Source: Litorimonas taeanensis
GTDB taxonomy: Bacteria > Pseudomonadota > Alphaproteobacteria > Caulobacterales > Maricaulaceae
Direction of reading: 5' to 3'
DNA: 64,000 nt
Assembly (NCBI RefSeq): GCF_003634015.1
Contig: NZ_RBII01000001.1
Span: 930,001 to 994,000 of the forward strand
The notes under the pieces were generated by a model, which did not search any database, was not told the origin of the DNA, and worked only from the letters and a program-made list of their open reading frames with translations. The position numbers were made by a program, and so were the translations under genes. Of this stretch, positions 655 through 9,065 are shown piece after piece (the first letter of the stretch is position 1; each line of letters starts with the position of its first letter).

Positions 655-1872
655 ATGCTAGGTCGGCTAAACCAATATTTGATGAAACGAGCCGCCGTGA
701 GTATTGGCGGCCTCGTCGTTTTTGCTTGTTGCGTTCTCTTATTAGAACGGCTCCTAAGGATATTTGAAATCGTGTCGAATTCCGCAGATCCGGCCGCCGA
801 CGCAACCCGAATGATTTACAATTTGCTACCTCATTATTTAGGTATGGCCGTGCCCATGGCGCTCCTATTGGGAACAATCATCACGATTGATCGGTTTTCT
901 CGCTCAAGCGAACTTACAGCCGCTCTAGGTGCTGGCATTTCCCTATTTCATATGACGAAGCCATTCTTATTGTTAGCGAGTTTCTTAGCCTTCTTAACCT
1001 TGTTCATTGAAGGTTACATGCAACCTGTGGGCCGATACAACTATCGGCAACTTGTCAATGTGGTGAAACAACAGAGCTTCACCGCAGCGCTACGTGAAGG
1101 TACATTTACAACGGTTGGCACTCGGACGTTCTTTGCTGGCACTGATTTGCCTGGCGCCGCGATAGGCCCAATTTTCATTTATGAGTCTTCCGAAGATGAT
1201 TTGAACAATCAAACTGGTTTTCGAATTACAACGGCGAGCGAAGGACGACTCGTTGTGCGCGAAGACACCAACGAACCTGTTCTCCAACTTTCATCAGGCC
1301 GCGCTAATCAGGTCGACAACGGCACGCAAATTGACGGCGACCTTGGGTTCGGTAGCGCTTCTATAACGGGTGCAGCCTCTGACACTAAATTTCGAGAGAG
1401 AGGAGATGATGAACGCGAACTAACGTCAATGGAACTTTTCAAAAACAGACACGGCACCGTTTACGACACCTTGAGCGTTGAGACTAATAACGCGGCGCTA
1501 CATTTGCGAGCAGGTCGCGCCGTACTTTTGCTCATACTCCCGTTTATTGCGGTACCTTTTGGACTAAACTATGGCCGCAACCCTTCATCTGCGGGTATTT
1601 TTATAGGTGTTGTTTTTTTAGTTTCACTGCAAAAAGCGCTCGAATTTGGTCAAAGCCTAGGGGCCTCTGGTAAAATACCGCCATGGCTAGGTATTTGGTC
1701 AATCATTGCAATTGTCGCAATATTTGCTGCATATATCTTTTGGAAAAGTGCCTTCAAAATGGGACAACCTCCATTAACAGCCTTCGCACAGCAAATCTCG
1801 CATTACCAAGGCAAAGTAGTCAAGAAACTCTCCAACATTCGATTAAAGCTTGCTGGAGTCGAACGTGTTTAA
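655..1872 (+). CDS. LptF-like permease of an Lpt-type lipid exporter (LptF/LptG/YjgP-YjgQ family)
   Basis: A 405-residue inner-membrane protein with the LptF/LptG layout: two N-terminal membrane segments (about residues 12-33 and 60-80), a third near 100-120, a periplasmic beta-jellyroll part (about 130-275) and three C-terminal segments (about 285-375). In LPS export LptF and LptG form the membrane half of an ABC transporter with LptB2 and pass lipid to LptC and LptA. The housekeeping lptFG pair of alphaproteobacteria usually sits beside lptD/surA/pdxA. Here it heads an operon with a ceramide kinase-like gene, which points to a second, lipid-dedicated copy. The next gene overlaps by 8 nt. 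Family assignment is firm; the sphingolipid substrate is inferred. Confidence 0.85.
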   Translation: MLGRLNQYLMKRAAVSIGGLVVFACCVLLLERLLRIFEIVSNSADPAADATRMIYNLLPHYLGMAVPMALLLGTIITIDRFSRSSELTAALGAGISLFHMTKPFLLLASFLAFLTLFIEGYMQPVGRYNYRQLVNVVKQQSFTAALREGTFTTVGTRTFFAGTDLPGAAIGPIFIYESSEDDLNNQTGFRITTASEGRLVVREDTNEPVLQLSSGRANQVDNGTQIDGDLGFGSASITGAASDTKFRERGDDERELTSMELFKNRHGTVYDTLSVETNNAALHLRAGRAVLLLILPFIAVPFGLNYGRNPSSAGIFIGVVFLVSLQKALEFGQSLGASGKIPPWLGIWSIIAIVAIFAAYIFWKSAFKMGQPPLTAFAQQISHYQGKVVKKLSNIRLKLAGVERV

Positions 1873-2944
1873 GTTTGGCTTGTATCTAACGAAAACTTTT
1901 CTGCTCACGTGGCTTACAACTGTATTTGGGTTTTTAGTCCTGATTGGACTATTGGACAGCCTTGCCAATGGCGGTGATATTGTGGCGAGTGGCCAGGGCT
2001 TTCACGGCACGTTTAAATATATGCTCTTGCGAGCCCCAGTTATTTTCGACCGAATTTTCATGTTCACACTGGTCGTAGCTATTCTGCTTGTTTTTGTTAA
2101 ATTGATAAGACAGCACGAATTGGTTGCGCTTTTAGGGTTTGGTATCTCTGCTCCAAAACAGATTTTACTACTTAGCCCTATTGTACTCGCGGCGAGTGTT
2201 ACCTCTATCGGTTTTATCGACTTTGCAATGCCGCCCGCAGTACGTTCTTTGCAAGCTTGGGGTATTGGGGAGTATAAAGTTAAAAACATCACCTCTGAAA
2301 ACCCATTATGGCTTGAAGATGGACAGGATATCATTCGCGCGACGCAGCGCGTTAGCTTCGAAACCTTAGGCGACATTCAAATTTTTGAACGGGATGAAAC
2401 TGGCGCTGTAAATTCTGTTATTTGGGCGGAAACTGCTACATTTAAGGCGTCAAACTGGGCCCTTAATGGCGTCAAGATTCTAACGTTAAAGGGTTCTGAC
2501 GGAGAAAAACGAAGCGCTTTAAGAGATACCACGCCCCGTGCATGGGAAACCAACCAAACACCAAGATCTATCGCAAGATTAGCCGCTGAACCGAGAGATC
2601 TTTCATTAGGTGAAATGAAGACGTTTAGTGTGCGTGGAAATTCTGGCTCCAAGCCACGGTTTGCTTACAGTTTTTGGCATGCACACAGATTAAGTAGACC
2701 TTTAGCCGCGTTAATTTTGCTCGTCTGTTGCGTCCCCCTAATGCAGCGCACCGGACGTGAAGATACTGGCGACAAAGCTTTAATACTCGGCATTACTATG
2801 GGGTTCATTTTCTTGATTATAGATGGTGCTATGGCGACATTTGCTACATCGGGCGGTATAGAAGTTATGACCGCCATAGCGTTCCCTCTTGCCATATTCG
2901 GTCTATTTGGTGCCTTTTTACTCGTTCGCACTGAAAGTCTATAA
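1865..2944 (+). CDS. LptG-like permease of an Lpt-type lipid exporter
   Basis: A partner LptF/LptG-family permease of 359 residues. Membrane segments lie near residues 10-30, 55-75, 95-115 and, after a periplasmic jellyroll domain, three more near 270-355. The best start is GTG at 1865, with GGAG 7 nt upstream; it overlaps the preceding stop in the string GTGTTTAA, a sign of translational coupling and 1:1 production of the two permeases. The operon continues into a lipid kinase and a Tam41-like gene. By analogy with the report, from memory, of an alternative LptG acting on anionic sphingolipids in Caulobacter, this may replace LptG for ceramide-based lipids. The window itself does not prove that substrate. 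Confidence 0.85.
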   Translation: MFKFGLYLTKTFLLTWLTTVFGFLVLIGLLDSLANGGDIVASGQGFHGTFKYMLLRAPVIFDRIFMFTLVVAILLVFVKLIRQHELVALLGFGISAPKQILLLSPIVLAASVTSIGFIDFAMPPAVRSLQAWGIGEYKVKNITSENPLWLEDGQDIIRATQRVSFETLGDIQIFERDETGAVNSVIWAETATFKASNWALNGVKILTLKGSDGEKRSALRDTTPRAWETNQTPRSIARLAAEPRDLSLGEMKTFSVRGNSGSKPRFAYSFWHAHRLSRPLAALILLVCCVPLMQRTGREDTGDKALILGITMGFIFLIIDGAMATFATSGGIEVMTAIAFPLAIFGLFGAFLLVRTESL

Positions 2945-2979
2945 ATAGGCCTACCATGCAACGGATAAGAGATTGAATT

Positions 2980-3948
2980 GTGCTCCAAGCGCCTCAAATA
3001 CATAATCTTAAACCCGTTCTAGCCATTTCGAACGCAAAGGCACGGTCAGTCTCTCAAAAAGGCTCTAAAATTCAGCTCTCAGCGCTGCCGAGGGGCAGCA
3101 AACATCATATAAGTCGGGATAAATCAGACCTTGGCAAACTGCTTGAGCAAGCAAAGAACGACAAAATAGCACACATCCTGATTGAAGGCGGTGATGGTAC
3201 TGTCCGTATGGTGATGACGGCGCTTTTGAACTCATATGAAGACACTTCCCCTTTACCAGCCGTCTCAATCCTCCCAAGTGGAACAACAAATCAAATAGCA
3301 AGAAACGTCGGCTTAAAAAACTTTTCTGACATGCGCACAATTGTGAAAGGGGATGTTTCTGAAACAAGTGTTCCTCTTGTAAAAATAGAAATAGTTGGCG
3401 CCGGTAAAGAGAGCGCTCCCCCTTATTTTGGTTTTCTCTTCTCAACAGGAGCTTTGCCACATGTCAGTAAATTTGCACAAGAGAAGTTCAACAAGAATGG
3501 CGTTGGTGGTGGCACAGCAGTAGTCGGCGCCTTTTTGAAGGTAATGACTGGCAATAAAGAAACTTTAATGCCTCCGGAAAAACATAAGATGCGCGCCCGG
3601 ATTGGTGAACAAACCATTTTTAAACATAAAGGCAAAGCTCTTGGAACAATGATGACCACTCTACCTACGCTGATGATGGGCCTTGATCCATTTTGGGGAC
3701 ATGAAGCCGCTCCCTTACGTTTAACATGGGCTGAGGCCGATAGCCGCCACTTAGGGCGAAATGTTGCGGGACTTTGGATGGGGCGAAAACAAGATAGAGG
3801 CCAAGACGGGTTTCACAGTCACAATATTGATCGCCTAGTTTTACGCACCCTGGCTCCCGCTGTTTTGGATGGAGACTTTATAGATATTTCAGGAGCAAAA
3901 ATTCGTGTTTCAGCGTCCCGCCCGGTTCGGTTTTGGCAGTCCAAATGA
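2980..3948 (+). CDS. cpgB: Diacylglycerol kinase-family lipid kinase, probable ceramide kinase (CpgB-like)
   Basis: A 322-residue lipid kinase of the DAGK catalytic family. The nucleotide-binding glycine loop is EGGDGTVRMVM (about residues 69-79), followed by SILPSGTTNQIARN, the second conserved block; a C-terminal beta-rich domain follows. The start is a GTG at 2980, 35 bp after the LptG-like stop. The kinase would phosphorylate the primary hydroxyl of a lipid using ATP. The neighbouring serine palmitoyltransferase, ACP, ligase and reductase genes make ceramide the likely acceptor, as for Caulobacter CpgB, which belongs to the same family. Other lipid acceptors cannot be excluded from sequence. 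The next gene overlaps by ATGA. Confidence 0.75.
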   Translation: MLQAPQIHNLKPVLAISNAKARSVSQKGSKIQLSALPRGSKHHISRDKSDLGKLLEQAKNDKIAHILIEGGDGTVRMVMTALLNSYEDTSPLPAVSILPSGTTNQIARNVGLKNFSDMRTIVKGDVSETSVPLVKIEIVGAGKESAPPYFGFLFSTGALPHVSKFAQEKFNKNGVGGGTAVVGAFLKVMTGNKETLMPPEKHKMRARIGEQTIFKHKGKALGTMMTTLPTLMMGLDPFWGHEAAPLRLTWAEADSRHLGRNVAGLWMGRKQDRGQDGFHSHNIDRLVLRTLAPAVLDGDFIDISGAKIRVSASRPVRFWQSK

Positions 3949-4859
3949 GCGATAAAGTACTAGATATCATTAGGTCTGAAAAGTTGGAACCCCCAGCAAG
4001 GGTCAATGCAGTCTTAGACAAAATTGAAGAGAGGCATCCAGACAGAGTTCTCGCTTTCGTCTATTATGGATCTTCATTACGGGAAATCGAAAATCCTGAC
4101 AAAATGCTAGATTTCTATGTTCTTATAGACAGCTATCGAAAGGCTCATAAATCCATTTTACGAGCTTGGTTAAATCTCACAATTCCTCCTGCTGTTTACT
4201 ATTTAGAATTAGAACAGGATGGAGTTGTTTCGACCTGCAAATACTCCCTTATGACTTTGAAGGAATTTGAAAAACGCTCAGGAAAAGATGCGTTTCACTC
4301 TCAGATTTGGGGCCGATTCTCTCAGCCTTGTGTTCTCATGCGGGCACAGAACGAGTCCATAGCGGAAAGAGTGTATAAAGCTCGTACAAAAGCTGTAAAA
4401 TATATGGCTAGCCAATCCGCCCCATTAGTCGCCCCGTCTGCCACTGCAGCAGAGATATGGGGACGTGGCTTTTATGAAAGTTATAGAACAGAATTACGTC
4501 CCGAAAGTTCAGTCGGGCGTTCCACAGAAATTGTTGAACGTTTTAATGAACGATATGAAACAATCTCACGCGCCATATTCGGAGAAGTCGATTCTAAAGG
4601 GTGTTTTAATATCTCCACAGATGGCGCGAAATCTTTGTCGCGCAAATGGTTTTGGAGACGCGTTAGAGGCAAACCTCGCTCCATTTTAAGAGTTGCGCAC
4701 GGCGCCCTCACCTTTGATGGCGGAGTAGATTACGTCATGCGCAAACTTAAAAATCATTCAGGTGTCGATTACAAACCGACACCGTTTCAAAGAAAACACC
4801 CTTTTCTAACGGCCCCAATCATGGGGTGGAAATTATGGAAAATGGGCGCGTTTAGATAA
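3945..4859 (+). CDS. Tam41-like nucleotidyltransferase, candidate lipid phosphate cytidylyltransferase
   Basis: A 304-residue soluble protein starting at ATG 3945 in an ATGA overlap with the kinase gene. The N-terminal part carries a nucleotidyltransferase signature, FVYYGSSLREI followed by KMLDFYVLID, matching the YGS...DF motif of Tam41, the peripheral CDP-diacylglycerol synthase of mitochondria. Further on, CKYSLMTLKEFEK and IWGRFSQPCVLM resemble Tam41 blocks that read KYG and GR-QKP. Tam41 joins phosphatidic acid and CTP. Coupled here to a ceramide kinase, it could activate ceramide-1-phosphate with CTP for head-group addition, but this is inference. Similarity is judged by eye; a distant homolog with another nucleotide or acceptor remains possible. 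Confidence 0.6.
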   Translation: MSDKVLDIIRSEKLEPPARVNAVLDKIEERHPDRVLAFVYYGSSLREIENPDKMLDFYVLIDSYRKAHKSILRAWLNLTIPPAVYYLELEQDGVVSTCKYSLMTLKEFEKRSGKDAFHSQIWGRFSQPCVLMRAQNESIAERVYKARTKAVKYMASQSAPLVAPSATAAEIWGRGFYESYRTELRPESSVGRSTEIVERFNERYETISRAIFGEVDSKGCFNISTDGAKSLSRKWFWRRVRGKPRSILRVAHGALTFDGGVDYVMRKLKNHSGVDYKPTPFQRKHPFLTAPIMGWKLWKMGAFR

Positions 4860-4872
4860 TATAACAGTATTG

Positions 4873-6102
4873 CTACTCAGCGGCTAATTTTGAAGCCATA
4901 TCGTTCATCATTTCGCCCTGTGCATTTTTCATAGCACCGAATGTTTCGACGATCTTATTGACATCTTGCTCGGTATGCGCCGCAGACAAACTAATACGCA
5001 AAAGACTTGAGCTTTGGGGGGTTCCTGGTGGTACGGCTAAATTGACATAAACACCATTTTCAAGAAGCCAGTTCCATTCCAGAGCTGCTACGGCCTCATT
5101 AGGACGTCGCGCAGCAATCACGGGGCTTGGATCTGCACATAAGTCATACCCTAACTCGGATAAACCCGCATGAAGTTGTTGAGCCCGTTCCTTTAGGTTT
5201 TTTCTTAGATGATCACCTGTCTTTACTTTTTCTACTGCCGCTCGCGCCGCAGAAATATTGGATGGAGTAGCAGAGGCTGTAAACATATAAGGCCGCATAA
5301 CTTTGCGGGTAATCTCAAATTCTGGATGTTTAGAAGCACAAAACCCGCCCACAGAGGCTAAGCTTTTTGAAAACGTACCAGAAATAAAATCAACTTGGTC
5401 CAGTACGCCTTGTTCTTCTGCTATGCCGCAACCTGTTTCACCAAATATTCCATAAGAGTGGGCCTCATCGATAAAGAGGTAACCGCCATGGCGATGGGTA
5501 ACGTCAACGAATTCATCGACGGGTGCAATATCTCCAAACATGGAATACATACCCTCAATCACAACAAGTGCATGCCCATCTTGAATATCCCCGTGACGAC
5601 TTAACCGCTTATCTAAGTCTTCAGGTGAATTATGACGGAAACGGAATGTAGAGGCCCCCGTAAGACGAGTTCCATCGATGATACAGGCATGTGCATCAGC
5701 ATCCATAAAGATGACATCCTTATCACCTGCTAGGGCTGAAATCGCGGATAAGTTAGTTTGATAACCCGTTGTGAAAACCACGCAAGATGGCATGCCAAAA
5801 TGGTCTGCTAAAGCTTTTTCCAGATCGACATGTTCTGCATAACTGCCATTGGCGACACGGCTGCCCGTTGTTCCTGTCCCGTGGTTATCAATAGCTTGCT
5901 TTGCAGCGGCGACACAATCCTCATCAAAGGTCAAACCAAGATAGTTATTGGTTCCAGCTAATAAAATTTCGCGATTCCCAATTCGACCTCGCGTAGCATT
6001 AATAATATCATCAAATTGAACACCGAGCGCATCACGCCCGATCTTCATCATCATATCCACACGTGATTTTAGGGGACTGTATTTATCAAATATTGACGAC
6101 AT
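4873..6102 (-). CDS. spt: Serine palmitoyltransferase (first step of sphingolipid synthesis)
   Basis: A 409-residue PLP enzyme of the alpha-oxoamine synthase family, which condenses L-serine with an acyl thioester to 3-ketosphinganine. Visible motifs are GTGTTGSRVANG, FIDEAHSYG (the Asp and His that hold PLP) and FSGTFSKSLASVGG, with the Schiff-base Lys. KBL, BioF and HemA belong to the same fold, but the adjacent dedicated ACP, acyl ligase and SDR genes match the Caulobacter-type sphingolipid cluster and favour SPT. The start at 6102 has GGAG about 10 nt upstream, inside the end of the ACP gene, so the two are translationally linked. It is the last gene of its operon and converges on the Tam41-like gene. 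Confidence 0.9.
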   Translation of the reverse strand: MSSIFDKYSPLKSRVDMMMKIGRDALGVQFDDIINATRGRIGNREILLAGTNNYLGLTFDEDCVAAAKQAIDNHGTGTTGSRVANGSYAEHVDLEKALADHFGMPSCVVFTTGYQTNLSAISALAGDKDVIFMDADAHACIIDGTRLTGASTFRFRHNSPEDLDKRLSRHGDIQDGHALVVIEGMYSMFGDIAPVDEFVDVTHRHGGYLFIDEAHSYGIFGETGCGIAEEQGVLDQVDFISGTFSKSLASVGGFCASKHPEFEITRKVMRPYMFTASATPSNISAARAAVEKVKTGDHLRKNLKERAQQLHAGLSELGYDLCADPSPVIAARRPNEAVAALEWNWLLENGVYVNLAVPPGTPQSSSLLRISLSAAHTEQDVNKIVETFGAMKNAQGEMMNDMASKLAAE

Positions 6103-6109
6103 AGATATT

Positions 6110-6364
6110 TTACTCCGACGTCAATTCTTTGACAGCATTGACCAACTCTCCGACTGTTTTGATGTCGGACACCATTTCCATAGGAATCGAAATATCATAG
6201 TGATCTTCCAGCCCCATGACGAGGTCAAATACAGCCACAGAATCGACTTCGAGGTCCGACATGATGCCGCTCTCTTTCAGAATTTCACGATTTTGTGGAT
6301 TATAGGGTTTGAGAAGTTCGCAAATTTTATCAAAAATCTCATCACGTGAGGGAGAGGTGCTCAT
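6110..6364 (-). CDS. Acyl carrier protein dedicated to sphingolipid synthesis
   Basis: An 84-residue acyl carrier protein. The phosphopantetheine site is the Ser in LEVDSVAVFDLVM (about residue 43), with DSV in place of the usual DSL. It is acidic and predicted to form four helices. It overlaps the upstream SDR gene by ATGA and lies 7 nt before spt. In Caulobacter a dedicated ACP supplies the acyl group for the sphingoid base or its N-acylation; the same is inferred here because the ACP lies between the ligase/SDR genes and spt, away from any fatty-acid synthesis genes. Confidence 0.88.
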   Translation of the reverse strand: MSTSPSRDEIFDKICELLKPYNPQNREILKESGIMSDLEVDSVAVFDLVMGLEDHYDISIPMEMVSDIKTVGELVNAVKELTSE

Positions 6365-7275
6365 ATTGTATCCAGTAGGTCATAGCTTCGCATCGTTTCG
6401 CCTATTGCGTTCTGCATAGGAGTAGGATTCGTTACTCGGTCATTGCTTTGCCAGCGTTCATAACGGAACTCGGCCAGCTTTCCTAGGCTCAAGTGTCCCC
6501 ATCCACACAGACGTAATGTAATCGTTGTTACGGCTGCAATCGGAAAGATTAAGAACAAAGGTATAGGAAAAGCTCGTATCGATTTCCCTGTGGCCTGTCG
6601 ACCAAACTCAGCGAACTCAGGCATACTCACGGCTCCTATGGTAGAGGGCGAAACGATTGTCCCATCATAGTCGCCTCTTAACGCTCGCAACACTATATCA
6701 TCAACAAGGTCCGAAACATACACCATTGCGACGGAACGGTGTCGCCAGCCCTTTCCTCCAACGGTTGGCAAAAGCCCTTTCCCCATAAGGTCAAATATGG
6801 GTTTCGTCGCTGAGTCTCCAGGGCCGAAAACAGCTGGTGCCCGAATTATCGCAAGCTCTTGAGAGTAAACCTCTGTTACGGCCTTCTCTCCCAGAGATTT
6901 TGACTTAGCATACAAGCTCAACTGGGGCGCTCTGGCTGTCATCGAAGACATCAGAATAACACGTGGTACTGAGAGTTTTTCAGCCGCAACAGCAACAGCC
7001 CTAGCGCCGTCAATGTTTACCGTCTCAAATTCATCCCAATTCCTTGCCTTAACGAGACCGGCTAAATGAATCACACAATCTGCGCTCTGCCCCCAACATG
7101 AAAGGTCGCTCGTTAAATCACCTTTAATGACTTCAAGGTTGGGTGAACAAAACTCTGCCAGGGCTGATGGATTGCGGGCGAGCGCTCTTACCTTATGACC
7201 ATCAGCAAGAAGCCGGTGAAGTAAATGACGCCCCAAAAAACCTGTTGCGCCAGTCAGCGCAATAAGTTGAGGCAC
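6361..7275 (-). CDS. cerR: NAD(P)-dependent epimerase/SDR, probable ceramide reductase CerR
   Basis: A 304-residue extended short-chain dehydrogenase. The Rossmann glycine motif TGATGFLG is at residues 8-15, the acidic binding strand GDLT follows near residue 52, and the catalytic YAKSK lies near residue 142, preceded by MSSMT. A hydrophobic stretch near residues 235-255 could anchor it to the membrane. In Caulobacter the homologous gene reduces the ketone of the ceramide precursor. The start is a GTG at 7275, 5 nt after the ligase stop, and the 3' end overlaps the ACP start by ATGA. The SDR call is sure; the substrate follows from context. Confidence 0.75.
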   Translation of the reverse strand: MPQLIALTGATGFLGRHLLHRLLADGHKVRALARNPSALAEFCSPNLEVIKGDLTSDLSCWGQSADCVIHLAGLVKARNWDEFETVNIDGARAVAVAAEKLSVPRVILMSSMTARAPQLSLYAKSKSLGEKAVTEVYSQELAIIRAPAVFGPGDSATKPIFDLMGKGLLPTVGGKGWRHRSVAMVYVSDLVDDIVLRALRGDYDGTIVSPSTIGAVSMPEFAEFGRQATGKSIRAFPIPLFLIFPIAAVTTITLRLCGWGHLSLGKLAEFRYERWQSNDRVTNPTPMQNAIGETMRSYDLLDTI

Positions 7276-7280
7276 GTCAA

Positions 7281-9065
7281 CTAAGCCTTATTCTCGACGA
7301 CTCGAAGCGTTTCCGAGTTTTGCAAATCAATAATAGCACCTGATAAGAATTTTTCTTTTACGCGTGCACGCGACAATTTCCCAGAACTTGTTACAATCAT
7401 GGTAGACTTCGGTACAAGCTGAAGCCTTACAGGTACGCCCACTTCGAGGCGTATAGCGGCTGTCACAGCCTTAAATATCTCTTCTAACAAGGCCTCATCA
7501 CGTGTCCGGCACTCCAAAAGAAGCATAATTTGCTTTTCATCGCCTGCCCCTCCGATTGAGAACGCACAGGCTCTGCCGCAGCGGTGAGGTGCAGCGGCTT
7601 GTGCGGCCCATTCAATATCTTGGGGCCAAATATTACGGCCATGCCAAAGAATGAGGTCTTTTGACCGTCCTGTCACAACGATTTGTTCATCAAGCCAGTA
7701 GCCTAAATCCCCTGTATCTAGCCAGCCATCAGCCGTAAATGCAGCTTCTGTTGCCTGAGAGTTTCGGAAATAACCAGGAGAGACGCTCGGCCCCTTCAAG
7801 CAAATTCTACCCACCTTACCCGGCTGAAGAACATTATTATCAAAGTCTCTTACTTCCATTTCGTGATCTGGAAGCACGGGGCCACAGGCAACAAATGTAC
7901 GTCTGGCCGAAGATGGAGTAAGTTCAGAGGCTGTAACCGCCTCAGATGTACGCTCATAACGATCCATATCAATCGTATGTTTCTTTAACCCTTGGCCTAA
8001 AGGTGCGAAACTGGCAGCCAATGTTGTTTCAGCCAAGCCATAACTCGGTGTAAAAGCTCCTTTAGAAAAGCCCATCTCTTCAAACAGCTCTTGAAACTCA
8101 GTCAATGGTTCAGGCCTTACCATATCGCCACCGATACCAGCTGCGCGCCAGCTCGATAAATCAAGTTCTCTGTCTTCACGCCAACGACGGACACACAATT
8201 CATAGCCAAATGTCGGACTGTATGACAACGTCCCTTTGTGGTCACTAATCAACTGCAACCATGTAATTGGGCGACGTGTAAAATCATTCGGGTCTATATA
8301 GTCGACGGTCATTTGACTCATCATTGGTGCGATTAGAAAGCCAATCAGGCCCATATCATGATAGAGTGGTAGCCAACTCGTACACCGATCATTTTCTCCC
8401 ACTTTCATGCCATATTCAGTGATAGCCAGACAGTTAGCCGTAACCGAGCCTTGCGTCCCTATAATGCCCTTTGGTGAGCTAGAACTTCCTGAGCTGTATT
8501 GAATATAACACAAGTCATCTTTTTCAAATGGACGTAACTTATCGCCCTTTGGCAAATCATTCACGGCTTCAAACGTAATCACAGGAATCGCCTGATCATT
8601 TAACGCCGAGCTCATAATCGCTTCCATAGATTCTGGAGCGAACAGGGCGTAGAAGTCACCAGTATCAGCCATACGCTCTAATTGGCGCTCATAGCTACCG
8701 CGCCCGCCCAAAGTTACAGGAAGCGGAAGCGGCGCAGGAATCAGACCTGCATATTGGCAAGCAAAGAAAAGGACGGCAAACTCTGGCGTGGATACTGCGG
8801 CCAAACCAATACGAGAGTTCTTAGGCGCAAATTTCACCAAGCTGTACGCGACTTCGATTGCACGCTCTCGAAGTTCCGAATAAGGAAGAGCTGTCTTAAG
8901 CCCCCCTTTTCCATCGAAATAGTTGAAACCAGCCTGACTTGTGGCCGCGTAATCTAGTCCTTCACAAAGCGTATCAAAATCACTGAGACGCAACCTTTGC
9001 CCTCGAAGGGTTGGGGTTGGCGACATATCATTCGCAGCAATTTCTGAACTTTTGGAACTGGTCAT
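7281..9065 (-). CDS. acps: AMP-dependent acyl-ACP/acyl-CoA ligase of sphingolipid synthesis
   Basis: A 594-residue ANL-superfamily adenylating enzyme of the fatty-acyl-AMP ligase-like type. The AMP-binding loop is YSSGSSSSPKGI (about residues 190-201). Further motifs are SYGLAETTLA, LDTGDLGYW with the conserved Asp, and a C-terminal TSSGKLSRARVKEKF containing the catalytic Lys. It would activate a fatty acid and load it onto the ACP encoded two genes downstream, supplying the acyl group for ceramide formation. It is the first gene of the ligase-SDR-ACP-spt operon, with an upstream region of about 230 bp holding repeated sequence boxes. Ligase family is certain; the symbol follows the Caulobacter sphingolipid cluster. 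Confidence 0.8.
   Translation of the reverse strand: MTSSKSSEIAANDMSPTPTLRGQRLRLSDFDTLCEGLDYAATSQAGFNYFDGKGGLKTALPYSELRERAIEVAYSLVKFAPKNSRIGLAAVSTPEFAVLFFACQYAGLIPAPLPLPVTLGGRGSYERQLERMADTGDFYALFAPESMEAIMSSALNDQAIPVITFEAVNDLPKGDKLRPFEKDDLCYIQYSSGSSSSPKGIIGTQGSVTANCLAITEYGMKVGENDRCTSWLPLYHDMGLIGFLIAPMMSQMTVDYIDPNDFTRRPITWLQLISDHKGTLSYSPTFGYELCVRRWREDRELDLSSWRAAGIGGDMVRPEPLTEFQELFEEMGFSKGAFTPSYGLAETTLAASFAPLGQGLKKHTIDMDRYERTSEAVTASELTPSSARRTFVACGPVLPDHEMEVRDFDNNVLQPGKVGRICLKGPSVSPGYFRNSQATEAAFTADGWLDTGDLGYWLDEQIVVTGRSKDLILWHGRNIWPQDIEWAAQAAAPHRCGRACAFSIGGAGDEKQIMLLLECRTRDEALLEEIFKAVTAAIRLEVGVPVRLQLVPKSTMIVTSSGKLSRARVKEKFLSGAIIDLQNSETLRVVENKA

Follow-up and report, generated by a model that had tools for sequence, protein, structure and literature searches.

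Which lipid is handled by an LptF-LptG permease pair that is encoded among genes of sphingolipid synthesis? The question is raised by a locus of Litorimonas taeanensis (assembly GCF_003634015.1, contig NZ_RBII01000001.1, positions 930,001 to 994,000), and this whole stretch of 64,000 nucleotides is called the window here. The route of bacterial sphingolipids to the outer membrane is a recognised gap in knowledge, since no flippases or transporters had been identified for these lipids (PMC11087976, Uchendu et al. 2024). In Caulobacter crescentus, LptC2, LptF2 and LptG2 (CC_1168, CC_1156 and CC_1155) and a possible flippase were mapped in the phosphosphingolipid cluster, and a selective transport of phosphosphingolipids from the inner to the outer membrane was predicted but not tested there (PMC11324152, Olea-Ozuna et al. 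2024). The same study listed cluster orthologues in Hyphomonas, Sphingomonas, Zymomonas, Nitrosomonas, Azotobacter and Pseudomonas luteola. The idea of sphingolipid export by LptF2/LptG2 is therefore not new, and the initial annotation of the window was mistaken in taking a full LptF-LptG pair to go beyond the Caulobacter work, where LptF2, LptG2 and LptC2 are already named. Our literature search for LptF2/LptG2, or for Lpt together with glycosphingolipid, had most subscription journals outside its scope and returned no further relevant paper. No transport measurement for LptF2/LptG2 was found in the literature, the founding Caulobacter proteins included. What is new here is the comparative evidence, a residue signature and the observation that the system does not generally include LptC2.

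The operon and its sphingolipid neighbourhood

The genes at the locus are the following.

655..1872, plus strand: lptF2, type-2 LptF permease (PF03739, 190.9 bits; type-2 clade; TM1 motif ER-x-LR)
1865..2944, plus strand: lptG2, type-2 LptG permease (PF03739, 158.9 bits; type-2 clade; a TTG start at 1850 is also possible)
2980..3948, plus strand: lipid kinase of the DAGK fold, occupying the position of the ceramide kinase CerK/CpgB (PF00781, E 2.7e-14)
3945..4859, plus strand: CpgC-like nucleotidyltransferase of the Tam41 fold, about 305 codons (AlphaFold2 model and Foldseek)
4873..6102, minus strand: spt, serine palmitoyltransferase, convergent with cpgC (Pfam aminotransferase I/II)
6110..6364, minus strand: acpR, acyl carrier protein (PF00550)
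6361..7275, minus strand: cerR, ceramide reductase (Pfam epimerase/NAD-binding and synteny)
7281..9065, minus strand: aasR, acyl-ACP synthetase (PF00501 and synteny)

The four-gene operon described in the initial annotation was confirmed. The GTG start of lptG2 at 1865 is preceded by GGAG (1855-1858) and gives an 8-nt overlap with lptF2; the alternative TTG start at 1850 comes from the mechanical ORF call. A gap of 35 nt (2945-2979) separates lptG2 from the kinase gene, which is joined to cpgC by an ATGA overlap (3945-3948). As had also been described, the operon faces a sphingolipid biosynthesis operon, the convergent spt-acpR-cerR-aasR (4873-9065), whose end is 13 nt from the cpgC operon. 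The spt product of the window is 86% identical to the copy of Litorimonas cladophorae.

Both permeases are covered over their full length by PF03739, with 190.9 and 158.9 bits against a cut-off of 27.9. With the NCBIfam models, the lptF2 product scored 196 (196.5) bits as LptF versus 97 as LptG, and the lptG2 product 173 (173.1) bits as LptG versus 52 as LptF. These scores are under the equivalog cut-offs of TIGR04407 and TIGR04408 (196.5 versus 230 and 173.1 versus 240), and the housekeeping pair of the same genome is also slightly under them (223.5 and 225.4).

The kinase contains the GGDGT motif, which is invariant across 17 orthologues, and its nearest structures in the PDB are of the YegS type. 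With a DAGK catalytic domain and GGDGT it would be counted among the CerK/CpgB enzymes, with ceramide as the predicted substrate. The enzymology of ceramide kinase was found in the literature for Caulobacter CC_1160 only. In Caulobacter, CerK/CpgB (CC_1160) and CpgC (CC_1161) are both required for ceramide phosphoglycerate. The window resembles this system in its neighbourhood, its DAGK-type kinase and a partner that is like a CDP-DAG synthase.

When the AlphaFold2 model of the CpgC-like protein (pLDDT 92.6) was compared with the PDB in Foldseek, Tam41 (6ig2) ranked first, with an E-value of 2.2e-7 and a probability of 1.00, so the earlier name "Tam41-like" is correct at the level of the fold. 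The protein differs from this mitochondrial CDP-DAG synthase in its sequence, with 15-16% identity, a TM-score of about 0.5 and no Pfam match. The Tam41 Pfam model matched none of the 31 CpgC-like members at E <= 1, and none of them had an informative match to any other Pfam model. Residues Y45, G46, S47 and D60 are invariant in the 31 relatives.

When the genome was read to the left of the window, the cluster was seen to continue on the divergent strand with genes for DUF2141, a bCerS-like protein, NTP_transf_3, a possible flippase, HAD, Glyphos_transf (PF04464) and an AspH-type hydroxylase. The bCerS and flippase names were given by synteny with the Caulobacter cluster, with no family match behind them. 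Besides the NTP_transf_3 gene, no second nucleotidyltransferase was found in the cluster stretch read.

Three of these leftward genes have relatives at other loci. The gene of the PF05118 aspartyl/asparaginyl beta-hydroxylase family (L006:5636-6451) is one of several that recur near spt clusters (also at L025, L042, L124, L128, L129, L137, L146, L148, L156, L157 and L166). Its product, from a family that includes LpxO, is a candidate for hydroxylating the acyl chain of ceramide. The DUF2141 gene (L006:11974-12549) encodes a secreted product, is divergent from lptF2 and recurs beside type-2 lptF at many loci. It was considered as a bridge component and set aside, as its predicted model had no significant fold match. 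It probably takes the place of Caulobacter CC_1157, which was termed unrelated (PMC11324152). The Glyphos_transf gene (L006:6563-7771) has a homologue that adjoins LptC2 in Caulobacter-like loci (L032) and there holds the position of CC_1167. The latter was also termed unrelated, though the cofitness of its mutant with spt is 0.57 (PMC11324152).

Two types of LptF-LptG pair

The genome was searched for further permease genes of PF03739 and contains four, two in the window and two elsewhere. The second lptF/lptG pair is located at 100273-102587 of contig C1 and is flanked by pepA and surA-pdxA-rsmA. This agrees with the initial annotation, which had taken the window pair to be distinct from the LPS copies. 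It had also described the housekeeping pair as usually lying with lptD, surA and pdxA; here surA and pdxA do adjoin, but lptD is on a different contig (C2, 767 kb). LpxC was found, and lptC, lptA and lptB form a single run at 217-220 kb of C2. The genome thus has a complete housekeeping Lpt system in addition to the window pair.

In gene order, lptD is outside the usual lptF-lptG-lptD-surA arrangement in the window genome (L005:6839-10603, C1) and in G304, G309, G378 and G358. It is still found between lptFG and surA in family members such as G294 and G299.

Two trees were computed, one of 134 proteins, which included five loci without marker genes in the stretch read, and one of 89 proteins with bootstraps (UFBoot/SH-aLRT). 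Both showed four clades, with support in the 89-protein tree for LptF1 (100/100), LptF2 (100/99), LptG1 (100/99) and LptG2 (99/96). As the initial annotation had supposed, the window pair stood apart from the housekeeping proteins. It was placed inside the type-2 clades together with Caulobacter-like and LpxC-less lineages, and the housekeeping pair of the genome was of type 1. Type-1 members adjoin pepA, surA, lptD and pdxA; type-2 members adjoin cpgC, spt and bCerS.

Since the pair belongs to the LptF/LptG family and has a similar length, it could be an alternative exporter of LPS that is used for a modified form or under a certain growth condition and lies in the sphingolipid cluster by chance. 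The co-evolution of the pair with CpgC argues against this. In 14 genomes with both systems, the distances of LptF2 and LptG2 tracked those of CpgC after the LptF1/LptG1 signal was removed (partial r 0.88 and 0.81). The distances of LptF1 and LptG1 did not track CpgC in the 14 genomes (partial r 0.12 and 0.26). In G299, a genome of the same family, CpgC, LptF2 and LptG2 are all very different from those of the window (identities of 28%, 25% and 22%), a pattern that joint movement of the whole cluster would produce.

The two types were then compared at single residues. The coupling-helix glutamates that are needed for LptB coupling (E. coli LptF E84 and LptG E88; PMC5082905) are present in both window proteins, in 40/40 LptF2 and in 35/38 LptG2, and are kept in both types. 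The positions of contact to the LPS phosphates were taken from the cryo-EM structure (PMC6744409). At the phosphate contact R33 of E. coli LptF, arginine was found in 38 of 40 type-2 proteins versus 8 of 26 of type 1, where the residues are mixed. The neighbouring K30, which is outside the listed contacts, is K or R in 38/40 of type 2 versus 1/26 of type 1, and LptF1 of alphaproteobacteria has a glutamine there in 25/26. At the position of E. coli LptG K40, 25 of 28 LptG1 have arginine, and the basic residue is essentially lost in LptG2. The window pair is therefore like the permeases of the LptB2FGC LPS exporter in its family, PF03739, and in the coupling-helix glutamates, but unlike them in its type-2 clade and at the LptF K30/R33 and LptG K40 positions. 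TM1 of type-2 LptF reads ER-x-LR, and this short signature separates the two kinds of LptF. The arginines of the motif, residues 32 and 35 of the window protein, may hold the phosphate or acid group of the sphingolipid.

Co-occurrence with CpgC and with LPS

One set of 289 alphaproteobacterial genomes was searched for CpgC, LpxC and PF03739 alike, and the results were cross-tabulated, with the loss of LPS scored by LpxC alone. All 17 genomes with CpgC and LpxC had at least four PF03739 genes (four or five), and at least four were found in 2 of the 234 genomes with LpxC and no CpgC. Among the 21 genomes with CpgC and no LpxC, 20 had two PF03739 genes and one had three. Fisher's test of the cross-table gave p-values of 1.7e-24 and 3.5e-11, with kinship ignored. 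At least 12 LpxC-less genomes have their only pair on the same contig as cpgC and within about 12 kb of it, and wherever the only pair of a CpgC-positive LpxC-less genome was included in the tree, it was of type 2. An LPS exporter would hardly be retained in this way, and the linkage to spt, bCerS or CpgC extends across Alphaproteobacteria and to some Gammaproteobacteria, there with weaker type-2 scores. The alternative of a second LPS exporter is thus largely refuted and has very little probability left.

The absence of LpxC was not explained by a general assembly gap, since the genomes had been drawn at a completeness of at least 90% and the 21 CpgC-positive cases were mutually consistent. 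For G048, which is LpxC-less with a type-1 lptFG and lptD, an assembly gap is probable.

The same pattern was seen within families. In family f1, four PF03739 genes are present in each of seven CpgC-positive genomes and two in each of six CpgC-negative ones. In family f26, the LpxC-less G133 has a type-2 pair only; G023, with LpxC and no CpgC, has two PF03739 genes, of which one was included in the tree and proved to be of type 1. Three LpxC-less genomes of family f13 have one type-2 pair each beside a bCerS-like gene (L082, L085 and L086), and CpgC was not found in two of them and was weak in the third. In family f145, the type-2 pairs are distant from cpgC and one genome (G291) has no CpgC, so the substrate is not always the CpgC product.

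Four LptF/LptG genes and no CpgC match were observed in G018, G208 and G291, and the extra pair of G291 is of type 2. These extra pairs possibly serve other sphingolipids or are unrelated duplicates.

The collection was scanned with Spt because the CpgC profile was too divergent. Of the 80 named spt loci, 45 showed a permease gene, and each of these permeases was matched best by a type-2 model. At the Roseovarius spt loci (L126, L128 and L129) no LptF2/LptG2 was seen; LptA- and LptB-like matches lie nearby in L128 and L129. Roseovarius either has a different export route or has its housekeeping lptAB close by chance.

The Lpt bridge and the proposed role

In Caulobacter, LptC2 is listed alongside LptF2 and LptG2, and in the genus g233 an extra LptC gene of the Caulobacter type adjoins the cluster (L032 and L056). 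This could mean that the type-2 pair belongs to a fully dedicated machine that works in parallel to the housekeeping one and has an LptC2, and possibly also a bridge, to itself. The window locus is like that of Caulobacter in having a second LptF and LptG within a ceramide/phosphosphingolipid cluster. In the Caulobacter-like loci (L032), LptC2 is present and the pair is followed by bCerS and an NTP transferase. The window pair differs in sharing its operon with the kinase gene and cpgC, and no LptC2 was found in the genome. The search with PF06835 found a single LptC locus in the window genome and no companion LptC2. LptC2 of the Caulobacter type scored 68.9 bits versus 40.9 for the housekeeping LptC of that genome, so the search should reveal any LptC2 in the window genome. 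One weak candidate (C2:920556, E 0.28) was rejected as a biotin carboxylase-type protein. The housekeeping LptC (L010:1219-2439, C2:217 kb) has about 406 residues with a second LptC/OstA-like stretch and is about twice the usual length.

A single LptC locus was also found in nearly all genomes examined, and the second LptC was confined to g233. LptD was present in 61/61 genomes tested, including 23/23 LpxC-less ones, essentially as one per genome. LptB was above the cut-off in 58/61 genomes and in 22/23 of the LpxC-less ones, with two in G125, one in each other passing genome and none over the cut-off in G001, G163 and G173. LptA was recorded in the window genome. With single LptB, LptC and LptD and multiple LptFG, the permease is the duplicated part and LptC2 a local addition, which is not a general component of the type-2 system. 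The easily detected LptC2 is missing from nearly all genomes, and all but four of the 61 have one LptB over the cut-off, so a fully dedicated machine is improbable.

The sequence does not reveal the direction of transport, and the pair might move the sphingolipid inward or between the leaflets only, for recycling or flipping. This is very doubtful, as the coupling residues and the family are those of an Lpt exporter, the LpxC-less genomes retain LptD, and the cluster has a separate possible flippase.

The observed gene content, clades, co-occurrence, co-evolution and residue signatures point instead to export along the Lpt bridge. In the proposed pathway, Spt, ACP, AasR, bCerS and CerR would make ceramide, which would be phosphorylated by the DAGK-fold kinase and then probably activated with CTP by the Tam41-fold enzyme. 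Head-group enzymes would complete the charged sphingolipid, and LptF2-LptG2 would extract this product of the surrounding enzymes from the inner membrane. The permease pair would be the selective, duplicated part, and the ATPase LptB and the LptC-A-D bridge would be common with LPS. We consider it highly probable that lptF2-lptG2 encode such a sphingolipid-selective extractor; the identity of the substrate, the direction and the physical sharing of LptB, LptC, LptA and LptD are deduced. That the pair is dedicated to sphingolipids, as the initial annotation had proposed, is supported by the separate lptFG pair and the tree, with sphingolipid transport as a prediction.

In conclusion, a prediction for one organism becomes a candidate rule for the class, with one permease pair per outer-leaflet lipid and a common bridge. 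The Lpt bridge is likely to be a general conveyor of outer-leaflet lipids with interchangeable permeases, in which a single LptB-LptC-LptA-LptD line would receive LPS from LptFG1 and sphingolipids from LptFG2. Several LPS-free alphaproteobacterial lineages would run this line on LptFG2 alone. In the LpxC-less lineages, the type-2 pair should be essential.
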